Assembly (NCBI RefSeq): GCF_900104815.1
Contig: NZ_FNTD01000004.1
Location: 7,191,001-7,255,000 of the forward strand
DNA from: Streptomyces misionensis
Lineage (GTDB): Bacteria; Actinomycetota; Actinomycetes; Streptomycetales; Streptomycetaceae
Direction: 5' to 3'
Length of the DNA stretch: 64,000 bases
Shown here: positions 20,024 through 39,400 of the stretch, piece after piece
How positions within the stretch are numbered: the first letter of the stretch is position 1
Layout: every line of letters starts with the position of its first letter
Position numbers and translations under genes: made by a program
Notes under the pieces: model-generated
The model's database searches: none
Told to the model about the DNA's origin: nothing
What the model saw: the letters and a program-made list of their open reading frames with translations, nothing else

Positions 20024-21067
20024 TCAGCCGGTGATCTCCTTCAGCCGGGCCACCACGGACGCCTCGCTCTCGCCGTCCTGCGGCACCGGCACGATCTGGA
20101 GGTGGGTCACGCCCGCCTCGCGGTACGCGGCCAGCCGGTCCCGTACATAGCCTTCCGGGCCGCAGATCGTGGTGGCCTCCAGGAGCGCGTCCGGGACGGC
20201 GGCCGCGGCCCCCGTCCGGTCGCCCGCCCGGAACAGCCGCTGGATGGCCTGCGCCTCCTTCGCGTAGCCGTAGCGGGCGACCAGGTCGTGGTAGTAGTTG
20301 TGGCCGGGGGCGCCCATGCCCCCTATGAACAGGGCGAGTTGGCCGCGGGCCAGCTCCCGCGCGCGGGCGGCGTCCGGGCCGATGGCGAGCAGTCCGCCGG
20401 CCGAGACCCGCAGCGGGCCGAGCCGCGGGTCGCGGGCGGCCGCGCCGGCCCGGAGTGCCGGCCCCCACACCTGGTCGCACCACTCGGGCACGAAGAACAT
20501 CGGCAGCCAGCCGTCCGCGGTCTCGGCCACCATCCGGACGTTCTTCGGGCCGAGCGCGGCGACCCACACCGGGACCGACGGACGTACCGGCGGCGTGAGC
20601 AGCCGCATCGGGATGCCGAGGCCGCTGCCCTGCCCCTCGGGCAGCGGCAGCCGCACGGACGCGCCCTCGTAGCTCACGGGCTTGTCCCGCTTCCAGAACG
20701 CCCGCATGACCTCGATCGTCTCGCGGGTGCGGGTGACCGGGGCGGTGAACGGCACCCCGTGCAGGCCCTCGACGACCTGCGGGCCGGAGGAGCCGAGCCC
20801 GAGGTGGCAGCGGCCGCCCGAAAGCGCGTCGACACCGGCGGCGGTCATGGCCAGCAGCGCCGGGGTGCGGCTGTACACCGACAGGATGCCGGAGCCGATC
20901 TCCAGCCGCTCCGTGCGGGCGGCGAGGAAACCCATGAAGCTGGGCGCGTCGTAGCCGTACGCCTCGGGCACCCAGACGAGATCGAGCCCCGCCCGTTCGA
21001 GTTCGGCGACCTGCGCCGCGGCGCCCACGATGTCGCCGTCGTACTTGAGCTGCATGGAGATCTTCAC
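20024..21067 (-). CDS. LLM-class F420-dependent oxidoreductase
   Basis: A 347-residue luciferase-like barrel. It shows GLDLVWVPEAYGYDA, RLEIGSGILSVYSRTP, GGRCHLGLGSSGPQVVEG and a late PEGYVRDRLAAYREAG, close to the F420-dependent Mer/TIGR03559-like group. It starts at GTG 21067. It lies 33 bases behind the acyl ligase gene on the same strand, so the two are probably co-transcribed. It may reduce or oxidise an acyl or prenyl intermediate of the cluster. Substrate unknown. Confidence 0.8.
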   Translation of the reverse strand: MKISMQLKYDGDIVGAAAQVAELERAGLDLVWVPEAYGYDAPSFMGFLAARTERLEIGSGILSVYSRTPALLAMTAAGVDALSGGRCHLGLGSSGPQVVEGLHGVPFTAPVTRTRETIEVMRAFWKRDKPVSYEGASVRLPLPEGQGSGLGIPMRLLTPPVRPSVPVWVAALGPKNVRMVAETADGWLPMFFVPEWCDQVWGPALRAGAAARDPRLGPLRVSAGGLLAIGPDAARARELARGQLALFIGGMGAPGHNYYHDLVARYGYAKEAQAIQRLFRAGDRTGAAAAVPDALLEATTICGPEGYVRDRLAAYREAGVTHLQIVPVPQDGESEASVVARLKEITG

Positions 21068-21100
21068 GGGAGGGACTCCGATCGGAAGGAGGGGCGCGGG

Positions 21101-36248: not shown

Positions 36249-36477
36249 GGTTGATCTCCTGTTGCCGGGCCGACCTCAACCTGCCCTTTCTCGCACACCC
36301 AAGCCGCCCTGGAAAGGGGCAGCTTGACGTATAGCCACTGTCCAGGCCGGTGTGCCGGGGTCGGGCTAACCTCCTCGGAGCGCGCGGACCCCGTCCGCCG
36401 GGAACCGCATTCTTTTCCGTGTCTTGTGCGAGCAGGAATTCCCCTCCCGCGCAACCGTAGGTGAATGGCGAGGAATT
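36249..36477. promoter_or_regulatory. Divergent promoter region, polyprenyl synthase / NRPS1
   Basis: A 229-bp region that must hold the NRPS1 promoter. TTGACG near 36326 could be a -35 box, but no matching -10 is seen. No exact CGTCCAG triple is present; a single TGTCCAG lies near 36344. Confidence 0.35.
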
Positions 36478-39400
36478 ATGGATCTGTCTCTGTCCTTTAC
36501 CGACGGCGAGCAGTTGCTTCCGCTGACGGGCGCACAGGCAGGGGTGTGGTTCGCACAGGCCGTCGAGCCCGACAGCCCGATCTTCCGGGCGGCCGAGTAC
36601 CTGGAGATCCACGGCCCCGTGGACCCCGAGCTGTTCGAGCGGGCACTGCGCCGGATGACCGCCGAGGCCGACGCCCTGCACATCACCTTCGTGGACACCG
36701 AGGACGGCCCGCGCCAGCGCATCGGCGCCGAACCGGACTGGCGGCTGCGGATCGTGGACGTGTCCGGCGAGTCCGACCCGCGGCGCGCGGCCGAGGAGTG
36801 GATGCGGCGCGACCTGCGCCGGCGCATCGACCTGACCGGCACCGAACTGTTCACCTACGCGCTGTTCCGCGTCGCCCGGGACCGCTGGTTCTGGTACCAC
36901 GCCTACCACCACATCCTGCTGGACGGGGTGGGCGCCGCCCTGCTGGTCCGCCGGGTCGCGGACCTCTATTCCGCGCTCGTCGCCGGCACCGAGCCCGAGC
37001 CCGGCCCGTTCGCCTCCGTGCGCACCCTGCTCGCCGAGGACGCCGCCTACCGCGCCTCCGAGGAGTTCACCGCCGACCGCGCCTTCTGGCAGGGGCGGTT
37101 CGCCGACCAGCCGGAACCGATCGCCCTGTCGGCCCGCCCCCTCGTGCCCTCCGCGGACTTCGTGCGCCGCAGCGCGCACCTTCCCGCGGACGTCCAGGAC
37201 GCGCTGGTGCGGGCGGCGGAGCGGGCCGGCACCGCGCGCTCCCGGATCGTCATCGCGGCCACCGTCGCCTATCTGCACCGCATGACCGGCTGCACCGACG
37301 TGGTGCTCGGACTGCCGGTGACCGCGCGGCCGGGCCCGCACTCGCGCCGCGCCCCGGGCATGGCCGCCAACGTGGTGCCGCTGCGCGTGGCCGTGGACGA
37401 CGCCACCACCGTCGCCGAACTGCTGGAGCGCACCCGCGTCGCCCTGCGCGGCGTCTCGGCCCACCAGCGCTACCGCGGCGAGGACCTGCGCCGCGACCTG
37501 GGCCTGCCCAACGACCACCGCCGGTTCTTCGGGCCGCTGATCAACGTCGTGCCCTTCGACTACGACCTGCGCTTCGCGGGCAGCCGGGCGGACGCCCACA
37601 ACATGTCGCTGCGGCTCATCGAGGACCTGGCCATCTCGGTCTACGACCGCGGCAACGGCACCCCCGTCCGGGTCGACTTCGACATCCACCCCGAGCTGTA
37701 CGGCACCGCCGAACTCGCGGCCCACCAGGACCGCTACGTGGCCTTCATCGGCCGGCTGGCCGAGGCGCTCGCCGAACCCGGCACCCCCCTCGGCAGGCTC
37801 GGCCTGCTCGGCGCGGACGAACTCGCGGACGTCCTCGCCCCGCCCGCCCCCGCGGCGGCCGGGCCCGCCCCCACCCTGGCCGGTCTCTTCGAGCGGCAGG
37901 TCCGCAGGACGCCCGACGCCCCCGCCGTCCGGTACGAGGACACGGTCCTCGACTACGCCGAGCTGAACCGGCGCGCCAACCGGCTCGCCCGGCTCCTCAT
38001 CGCCCGCGGCGTCGGCCCCGAGGACCGGGTCGCCCTGCTGCTGCCCCGCTCGGCCGAGTTCGTCGTCGCGCTGCTGGCCGTGGTCAAGGCGGGCGCCGCC
38101 TACGTCCCCGTCGACCCGGACTACCCCGCGGCCCGGATCGCCCACATCCTCGGCGACGCGCACCCCGTGTGCGTGCTCACCGACGCCACCACCGCCGCCG
38201 CGGCCCGTGAGGCGGGTTCGGCCACCCTCGCGCTGGACGACCCGGCCGTCCTGGCCGAACTGGCCGCCGCCGCGGACACCGACCCGGCCGACGAGGACCG
38301 CACCGCCGCGCTGACCGCCGGGCACCCCGCCTACGTCATCTACACCTCGGGCTCCACGGGCCGCCCCAAGGGCGTCCTCGTCACCCACACCGGCATCCCC
38401 GCCCTCGCCCAGACGTTCATCGAACGCCTGGGCGTGCGCCCCGGCAGCAGGGTGCTCCAGTTCGCGTCGATGGGCTTCGACGCGATGGTGCCCGAGCTGT
38501 GCATGGGCCTGCTCGCCGGCGCCACCTTCGTCCTGGCACCGCGGGAGCGGCTGCTGCCCGGCGACCCGCTGGCCGCGTTCACCCGTGAGGCCGGCATCAC
38601 CCACGCCATCCTGCCGCCGTCCTCGCTCGCCGTGCTGAACCCCGAGGGCGACCTGCCGCCCGGCATGACCATCCTGGTGGCCGGCGAGGCCAGCTCCGAG
38701 GAACTGGTGGCCCGCTGGGCGCCGGGCCGGGTCCTGGTCAACGGCTACGGACCCACCGAGACCACCGTGTGCGCCACGATGAGCGAGGCGCTCGACGGCA
38801 CCCGCACACCCCCCATCGGCGACCCCTTCGCCGAGACCCGGGTCTATGTGCTCGACAGCGCCCTGCTGCCCGTGCCGCCCGGCGTCACCGGCGAGCTGTA
38901 CGTCGCCGGGCCGAGCCTCGCCCGCGGCTATCTGGGCCGTGCCGCGCTGACCGGCGAGCGGTTCGTCGCCAACCCCTTCGGGCGGCCTGGCGAGCGCATG
39001 TACCGCACCGGCGACCTGGTCCGCCGGCTCCCCGACCGCACCCTGGAGTTCGTCGGCCGCGCCGACGACCAGGTCAAGATCCGCGGCTACCGCGTCGAGC
39101 CCGGCGAGACGGAGGCCGCCCTGCTGCGGCTGCCGGCCGTCGGCCAGGCCGCGGTGACGGTGCGCCGCGACGCCACCGGGGCGCCCGCCCTGGCCGGCTA
39201 CGTCGTCCCCGCCGAGCCCGGCGACGGCCTGGACGTCGACGCCGTACGCGACGCCCTGGCCGAGGCGCTGCCCGGCTACCTGGTGCCCGCCACCCTGACC
39301 GTCCTCGCCGCGATCCCGCTCACGCCCAACGGCAAGGTCGACCACCGGGCGCTGCCCGACCCGGGCGCCCCCGGGGCCCGCACCCGCAGGGCCCCGGCCA

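Follow-up and report, generated by a model that had tools for sequence, protein, structure and literature searches.

A Streptomyces misionensis gene cluster with the predicted capacity to make a lipopeptide bearing a terpene-derived tail

Why should a terpene synthase, an oxygenase of the MpaB type and a nonribosomal peptide synthetase (NRPS) stand together in one genome region? This question was raised by a 64,000-nucleotide stretch of Streptomyces misionensis (the window), which corresponds to bases 7191001-7255000 of an 8.16-Mb contig in a genome of 8.47 Mb. Positions above 64000 are on the same contig and were counted on from the window. The initial annotation had proposed that an isoprenoid-derived acid is made here and used as the acyl tail of a peptide, and all the enzymes that it had named were found encoded within 20024-37830. 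Gene identities, catalytic residues, the MpaB-like fold, the starter type of the first condensation (C) domain and the co-inheritance of the genes were established computationally. The proposal was supported by the co-inheritance, the kinship of the MpaB-like protein, the racemase residues and the starter-type C domain, and an isoprenoid-derived tail is probable. The region is likely to be the front part of one biosynthetic cluster making an N-terpenoyl lipopeptide.

The terpene synthase, the MpaB-like protein and the first C domain of the NRPS (C1) were searched across 392 sampled Streptomyces genomes, and the best four to six candidates per genome were scored. At strict cutoffs, all three were found in the same six genomes (G000, G134, G249, G270, G299 and G363); absence from the other 386 is bounded by the four to six first-look candidates scored in each. 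For the terpene synthase, the carriers gave E values of 1.5e-176 or lower and the next match 8.2e-70. The corresponding values for the MpaB-like protein were 3.8e-150 or lower and 5.5e-82, and the C1 carriers were at 1.9e-217 or lower with a cutoff of 1e-140. The chance of two random six-genome sets of 392 coinciding is 2e-13, a figure to be read with the fact that joint transfer makes the sets non-independent. The shared distribution is co-inheritance of one unit and not three independent events.

In addition, a scan of named genomes gave nine loci. C1 was found in five of five further carriers with 63-84% identity, the S. huasconensis match spanning residues 95-436. We looked for terpene genes conserved without the NRPS, and the result did not contradict the proposal: C1 accompanied the terpene synthase and MpaB pair in 11 of the 11 genomes where both were sought. 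It lay on the terpene synthase contig in nine of these, the exceptions (G249 and Frankia) being fragmented drafts. S. aureus B-2808 and adm13 carry the terpene synthase at contig ends and are outside the C1 count. Overall, roughly twelve sequenced Streptomyces and a single Frankia carry the gene set. The genes of the window from the oxidoreductase gene up to the NRPS, called from frame plots and Pfam, are as follows.

20024-21067, minus strand: LLM-class F420-dependent oxidoreductase, Rv3520c subfamily (TIGR03559, 432.7 bits, cutoff 335); 69-86% identity in Streptomyces relatives, not found on the Frankia contigs examined
21101-22822, minus strand: acyl-CoA ligase (PF00501, E 1.7e-81), kept in relatives including Frankia
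22982-24193, plus strand: CoA-transferase III family protein (CaiB-like) with racemase residues H149, D150, D179 and E258 (Pfam, alignment)
24190-25359, plus strand: acyl-CoA dehydrogenase (Pfam)
25425-26456, minus strand: SbnB/CmnK-like dehydrogenase of L-2,3-diaminopropionate (L-Dap) synthesis; best PDB matches CmnK 7cxs and 4m54, 'Putative ornithine cyclodeaminase', which we take to be SbnB
26453-27487, minus strand: SbnA/CmnB-like pyridoxal phosphate (PLP) enzyme of L-Dap synthesis; best PDB match CmnB 8if7, with cysteine synthases and SbnA 5d84 also matched
27494-28396, minus strand: haem oxygenase of the MpaB/latex-clearing protein (Lcp)/trans-anethole oxygenase type (homologues, fold, residues)
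28425-29429, minus strand: class I terpene synthase of its own subfamily (PF19086, E 6.3e-40)
29508-31061, minus strand: aldehyde dehydrogenase (Pfam, E 7.9e-146)
31116-31925, plus strand: type II thioesterase (PF00975, E 4.9e-54), not found on the Frankia contigs examined
31982-32908, plus strand: enoyl-CoA hydratase/isomerase (PF00378, E 2.4e-42), kept in relatives including Frankia
32905-33864, plus strand: TauD-family Fe/2-oxoglutarate oxygenase with an HxE motif (Pfam)
33936-35087, minus strand: EryCIII-like glycosyltransferase (Pfam); among the relatives' loci examined, in G392 only (80%)
35181-36248, minus strand: short-chain polyprenyl diphosphate synthase (PF00348, E 9.4e-47; two DDxxD motifs)

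The L-Dap pair (25425-27487), the type II thioesterase, the TauD-type oxygenase, the glycosyltransferase and the F420-type oxidoreductase were absent from the initial annotation. The aldehyde dehydrogenase, terpene synthase, MpaB-like, SbnA-like and SbnB-like genes form a minus-strand run from 31061 to 25425 with gaps of 78, 28, 6 and -4 bp. The last value is the 4-bp overlap by which the PLP synthase adjoins the ornithine cyclodeaminase-type dehydrogenase, the arrangement of an L-Dap synthesis pair. The TauD-family protein is probably an amino-acid hydroxylase.

A gene was counted as present in a relative's locus when it was at least 50% identical across more than 30% of the query. Gene order was scrambled in S. 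vinaceus (G134), where about 55 kb held the terpene synthase, MpaB, ligase, LLM oxidoreductase, racemase-like, acyl-CoA dehydrogenase, type II thioesterase, hydratase and TauD genes. The same stretch also held the Dap genes, the polyprenyl synthase gene, an alcohol dehydrogenase gene and both NRPS parts. In Frankia sp. AgB32, the terpene synthase, MpaB, aldehyde dehydrogenase, alcohol dehydrogenase, hydratase, TauD, racemase-like and ligase genes were on one contig and the NRPS was on another.

The two terpene-specific proteins were examined by their residues. In the terpene synthase, all 21 aligned rows had the same DDxxD motif (DDQFD). Of the NDxxSxxxE motif, N, D and E were likewise unchanged in every row, and S was kept in 20 of the 21. 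These are the motifs of a class I terpene synthase. The best NCBIfam model was isoafricanol synthase with 169.7 bits, far under its cutoff of 500. An exact product was not assigned from family models, since no equivalog cutoff was reached. A plasmid-borne terpene synthase was also set aside, as the search of plasmids gave two weak matches only (31% and 36%).

The MpaB-like protein gave no direct Pfam match up to E 10. However, several homologues with 72-80% identity have PF09995 (DUF2236), and many of the matches listed were named MpaB family; the closest in the protein collection was 97% identical and from Streptomyces misionensis. A 34-row profile searched against PDB gave 8s1j, trans-anethole oxygenase, as its sole match (E 6e-12). 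The protein has a globin-like fold with the extra helices of Lcp and trans-anethole oxygenase, and it stood well above the globin background only for alkene-cleaving haem oxygenases. R71, T75 and H103 were invariant in 34 of 34 rows and supply the haem-side Arg and Thr and the proximal His; they match the Arg, Thr and His around the haem of Lcp, whose roles are described in PMC5522427. The fold is shared with trans-anethole oxygenase (8s1j) and Lcp (5o1l/5o1m) over 250-262 residues, whereas identity was 18% to the former and 10-11% to the latter. By this likeness, we propose that the enzyme cuts a C=C bond oxidatively. Unlike trans-anethole oxygenase and Lcp, it should act on a sesquiterpene. 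An internal TGA suspected in the G134 match was rejected, because the BLAST alignment of residues 1-293 showed none and the TGA was the natural end.

The peptide side was examined next to these genes. The NRPS genes span 36424-67252 on the plus strand and end with a terminal thioesterase (TE) domain. Their domains, including adenylation (A), thiolation (T) and epimerisation (E) domains, are as follows.

36424-41634, plus strand: NRPS part 1, Cstarter-A1-T1-C2-A2 (first part), the frame ending inside A2
41634-50693, plus strand: NRPS part 2, A2 (rest)-T2-C3-A3-T3-C4-A4-T4-E, continuing part 1 in another frame
50690-64000, plus strand: NRPS part 3, C5-A5-T5, C6-A6-T6, C7-A7-T7, C8-T8-E8 (no A), C9 and onward, followed by A9-T9-TE to 67252

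As had been noted initially, the NRPS opens with a C domain, and no A or T domain was found upstream of C1. C1 scored 333 bits with RzmA-Cs, 246 with CDA-C1, 207 with ObiF1, 179 with EntF, 111 with VibH and at most 75 with ordinary C domains. C1 is a starter-type C domain. It precedes A1 in a cluster that also holds an acyl-activating enzyme and a terminal TE, as in lipopeptide pathways, and the peptide product would carry an N-acyl tail. RzmA-Cs and HolA-Cs use acyl-CoA, and the R148/A149 position sets chain length, a small residue allowing longer chains (PMC7804268). In C1, counting from the HHxxxDG motif to locate the acyl-length position, Ala was found three residues after the glycine in eight of eight genomes.

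The A-domain codes were read by eye, because automatic reading often misassigns code position 278. They were DAPILAGVC for A1, DVWEVTADD for A2, DLTKMGHVG for A3, DAYLYGSLC for A4 (followed by E), DILQLGMIW for A5, DTTKLAVVS for A6, DVWHFSLVD for A7 and DALWRGGVF for A9. We took these codes to mean Asp for A3, Gly for A5, Asx-like for A6, Ser for A7 and Val-like for A9, with no match for A1 and A4. A2 was read as Dap-like because its code is acidic and Dap genes are clustered. By these readings, the peptide would have about nine residues, X-Dap-Asp-X(D)-Gly-Asx-Ser-?(D)-Val. On the same specificity table, the codes give Asp-X-Gly-Asx, compared to Asp-X-Asp-Gly of calcium-dependent lipopeptides.

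Genes that could supply the precursor were also present in the cluster. For the polyprenyl synthase, the closest model was of the farnesyl diphosphate (FPP)/geranyl diphosphate (GPP) type; the score was under the cutoff of that model, and product chain length was therefore not assigned. Beyond the window end, a zinc alcohol dehydrogenase, IspH, DXS and IspG are encoded at 67252-72911, the latter three likewise absent from the initial annotation. The genome has further full copies elsewhere (three of dxs, two of ispG and one of ispH), so those in the cluster are added copies. In the window genome, as in G299, G270 and G363, these methylerythritol phosphate (MEP) pathway genes are on the downstream side of the NRPS. 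The MEP block was thus present in three of the four relatives with enough sequence, roughly 5-16 kb beyond the alcohol dehydrogenase, G134 being the fourth; G394, G392, G249, Frankia, S. atratus and S. huasconensis were omitted from this count as the sequence examined was too short. Since the clustered supply genes belong to the MEP pathway, labelling with mevalonate would probably be uninformative. Another dxs lies about 4 kb before the window (G000:C4:7185451-7187307), 60-63% identical to that in the cluster, which hints that another group of isoprenoid genes lies upstream.

The enzymes that could process an acid lie among the terpene genes. We propose that the acyl-CoA ligase activates a terpenoid acid. 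The residues H149, D150, D179 and E258 of the racemase-like protein were invariant in eight of eight rows (the window protein and seven relatives), and His-Asp at 149-150 stands where the three CoA-transferases compared have Tyr-Asp. The racemase of M. tuberculosis uses His126/Glu241 and Asp156 for catalysis, and its site is shaped by Asp127 (PMC12246613; see also the bond table of PMC10967716). The His-Asp spacing is 30 in both proteins, and equivalents of His126, Asp127, Asp156 and Glu241 were all present, the equivalence being drawn from motif and spacing in place of a direct alignment with the racemase. E258 was presumably the counterpart of Glu241, an assignment that we made by eye. These residues would fit a 2-methyl-branched acyl-CoA substrate. 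Isoprenoid chains give 2-methyl-branched acyl-CoA during beta-oxidation. The Pfam scan, in which genes between 11.8 and 73 kb were covered, showed no polyketide synthase (PKS) or fatty-acid synthase gene.

From these genes, we infer the substrates, step order, cleavage site, chain length and product as follows. The extra ispG, ispH and dxs copies and the polyprenyl synthase would increase the supply of FPP. The class I terpene synthase would convert FPP (GPP being less likely) to a terpene retaining a trisubstituted C=C bond, which the MpaB-like haem oxygenase would cleave to an aldehyde. The aldehyde could then be oxidised to the acid via the alcohol and aldehyde dehydrogenases or a cell-wide dehydrogenase, and the ligase would form the CoA ester. 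The racemase-like enzyme, the acyl-CoA dehydrogenase and the hydratase might take the branched acid through part of one round of beta-oxidation. The starter C domain would move the acyl-CoA onto the module-1 amino acid, the NRPS would elongate the chain to about nine residues and the TE would release it. The TauD oxygenase, with the glycosyltransferase in two strains, may decorate the peptide. We favour, somewhat less firmly than an isoprenoid origin of the tail, the fuller reading of a bacterial lipopeptide family in which a cleaved sesquiterpene acid takes the place of a fatty acid as the N-acyl tail and is built through FPP, the terpene synthase, MpaB-type cleavage, beta-oxidation with 2-methyl racemisation and the starter C domain.

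Several observations weigh against this interpretation. No metabolite is known for the cluster, and the terpene could sit elsewhere on the peptide or be free. The acyl-CoA dehydrogenase, aldehyde dehydrogenase, polyprenyl synthase, SbnB and MEP genes were not universal in relatives. The aldehyde dehydrogenase was not found in the G134, S. atratus and S. huasconensis loci, and no close copy of the CaiB-linked acyl-CoA dehydrogenase was found in the G363, G394, S. atratus, S. huasconensis and Frankia loci; therefore neither is essential as a clustered gene. Three relatives, S. atratus, S. huasconensis and Frankia, showed no orthologue of the polyprenyl synthase, the best matches having 38-45% identity, and S. 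vinaceus also lacked the MEP block in the 100 kb examined. The Pfam-scanned genes included neither a 3-hydroxyacyl-CoA dehydrogenase nor a thiolase, so full chain shortening needs housekeeping enzymes. Although it has the racemase residues, the protein at 22982-24193 is overall closest to CoA-transferases (170 bits), with racemases behind them (124 bits), and was therefore classed as racemase-like only. Finally, in the window copy, the shift of frame and the lack of an A domain in module 8 may mean an altered product or none.

This last point leads to the best surviving alternative, which is compatible with a terpene-tailed lipopeptide: the window copy might be a decaying remnant of a pathway that is real in relatives, and the strain would make no peptide or a shortened one. 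The first NRPS gene shifts frame inside A2 at a run of C near 41.63 kb, whereas a single open frame was found in five of six relatives with the whole gene. However, a run of C is a common site of sequencing errors, and G363 also has two frames; G249, outside this count, has an open frame of 4788 aa. Module 8 (C-T-E) has no A domain, which was present in five of five relatives with the whole gene, but the module is cleanly in frame. In addition, seven relatives have an insert of about 6 kb between the thioesterase and hydratase genes, with a stand-alone A domain in all seven.

L010:2040-7268: cassette at the same place, about 6 kb, in G299, G270, G363, L011, L012/G394 and L014 (genes scanned in L010; esterase in L011)

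In MUM 178J, the insert encodes a peptidyl carrier protein (PCP), a PLP enzyme, an acyl-CoA dehydrogenase and the stand-alone A domain, and S. atratus adds an esterase. This five-gene cassette is missing between 31925 and 31982 of the window, and no orthologue of its A or PLP gene occurs elsewhere in the genome (best 44% and 32%). It is also missing in G134, where the thioesterase adjoins the hydratase as in the window. The other listed genes of the window are free of internal stops, with catalytic residues kept. Decay is therefore possible but doubtful; the product of this strain could be altered or absent. The cassette perhaps makes a modified amino acid on the free PCP. Loading of the A-less module 8 by the stand-alone A domain was rejected: G299, G270, G363 and G394 have both this domain and a module-8 A domain, so the cassette has another role.

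A cluster terpenoid might also be joined to the peptide away from its N-terminus, for example at the Dap side chain or a different residue, with C1 using an ordinary fatty acyl-CoA. Dap would offer a free amine, the terpene synthase, MpaB and Dap genes are contiguous, and RzmA-Cs and HolA-Cs take straight acyl-CoA (PMC7804268). However, the only acyl-activating and acyl-processing genes seen sit among the terpene genes, and no separate side-chain acyltransferase was seen among the scanned genes. Moreover, Frankia keeps the terpene synthase, MpaB, ligase and racemase-like genes and C1 with no Dap genes beside the terpene set, its best SbnB-like gene elsewhere being 40% identical. The terpene set therefore tracks C1 and not Dap, and we regard this arrangement as improbable.

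A free terpenoid (or its glycoside) and a fatty-acyl lipopeptide could also be two co-regulated products acting together. Streptomyces super-clusters exist, the glycosyltransferase adjoining the polyprenyl synthase could act on a terpenol, and the cluster borders a second, non-conserved NRPS. This is hard to credit when co-inheritance is complete in 11 of 11 genomes, a free terpene needs no acid-making, CoA-ligating and racemising set, and G392 alone among the relatives' loci examined shares the glycosyltransferase of the window.

The proposed terpene-tailed lipopeptide cluster extends to both sides of the genes listed above. When the following upstream genes (11776-20015) are included, the unit is about 61 kb, an extent based on their counterparts beside the cluster in several relatives.

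11776-14757, plus strand: Streptomyces antibiotic regulatory protein (SARP)-type regulator (Trans_reg_C, BTAD, NB-ARC, TPR; Pfam); a 67-71% identical copy adjoins the cluster in G299, G270, G249 and G392
15206-16306, plus strand: SARP-type regulator with HTH (Pfam), kept beside the cluster in G299, G270, G363, G249, G392 and G394
16332-18049, minus strand: ABC-2 membrane protein (16332-17087) and ABC ATPase (17084-18049) (Pfam), kept in G299, G270, G249, G392 and Frankia
18007-20015, plus strand: histidine kinase (18007-19359), kept in G299, G270, G249, G392 and L007, and LuxR-type response regulator (19356-20015) (Pfam)

Ordinary neighbours of the cluster edge were an HSP90-family frame (3974-6433, plus strand) and a hemerythrin-domain protein (8891-9466, plus strand). 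A 575-aa protein (9929-11656, plus strand) had good codon use and no Pfam match. No RNA elements or tRNAs were found in the window at the thresholds of the search tools. Past the window, a second NRPS at 74342-88205 has the domains C-A-T-C-A-T and C-A-T-C-A-T-TE. It is preceded by an aminotransferase IV and followed by a cytochrome P450 and an MFS transporter; its codes presumably suggest two basic residues and Thr. It was rejected as a part of the system, since no match of 50% or more was found in the G299, G270 and G363 stretches examined. A LanM-like protein (DUF4135 and LANC_like; 94055-97207, L004:15055-18207, minus strand), just past the NRPS genes, is probably a class II lanthipeptide synthetase.

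The tail of a lipopeptide determines membrane binding and toxicity, and nearly all lipopeptide tails known to us are fatty or polyketide acids. If our reading is true, a starter C domain fed with terpenes that have been cyclised and cut by oxidation would be a new tail chemistry. The MpaB reaction of fungi would also gain a bacterial counterpart, and terpene and NRPS biosynthesis would be linked via a route like that of mycophenolic acid. Three parts of the cluster, the terpene synthase, the putative alkene-cleaving oxygenase and the starter C domain, could be tested together. Undiscovered peptides are predicted in sequenced strains, including S. vinaceus, S. flavochromogenes, S. atratus, CB02980, MUM 178J and others. 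No such product or gene set was found among the papers listed in searches of the open full-text literature, which left subscription papers and MIBiG outside, and the novelty of the terpenoyl-lipopeptide route is provisional.

Parts of the system have known counterparts. Streptomyces terpenoid clusters such as that of phenalinolactone have their own dxs, ispG, ispH and prenyl synthase copies, as here; to our knowledge, clusters of this type have no NRPS with a starter C domain. In mycophenolic acid synthesis of Penicillium, an MpaB-type oxygenase cuts a farnesyl-derived chain, and the acid is activated by an acyl-CoA ligase and shortened by peroxisomal beta-oxidation (PMC11934065), a logic shared with the proposed route. 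In that pathway, however, an aromatic polyketide bears the chain and the acid itself is the end product, whereas here a terpene synthase, bacterial genes and an NRPS acceptor are involved, and the scanned genes included neither a PKS nor an aromatic prenyltransferase. In the RzmA/HolA and CDA synthetases, the first domain is a starter C domain of the acyl-CoA-using kind, as here, and C1 resembles HolA in its HHxxxDG motif and in the small residue that occupies the acyl-length position (PMC7804268). These synthetases take straight fatty acyl-CoA, whereas the genes neighbouring C1 would make an isoprenoid acid. The cluster would encode a variant of the known starter-C lipopeptide pathways in which the acyl group is, by all indirect evidence, a cleaved terpene.

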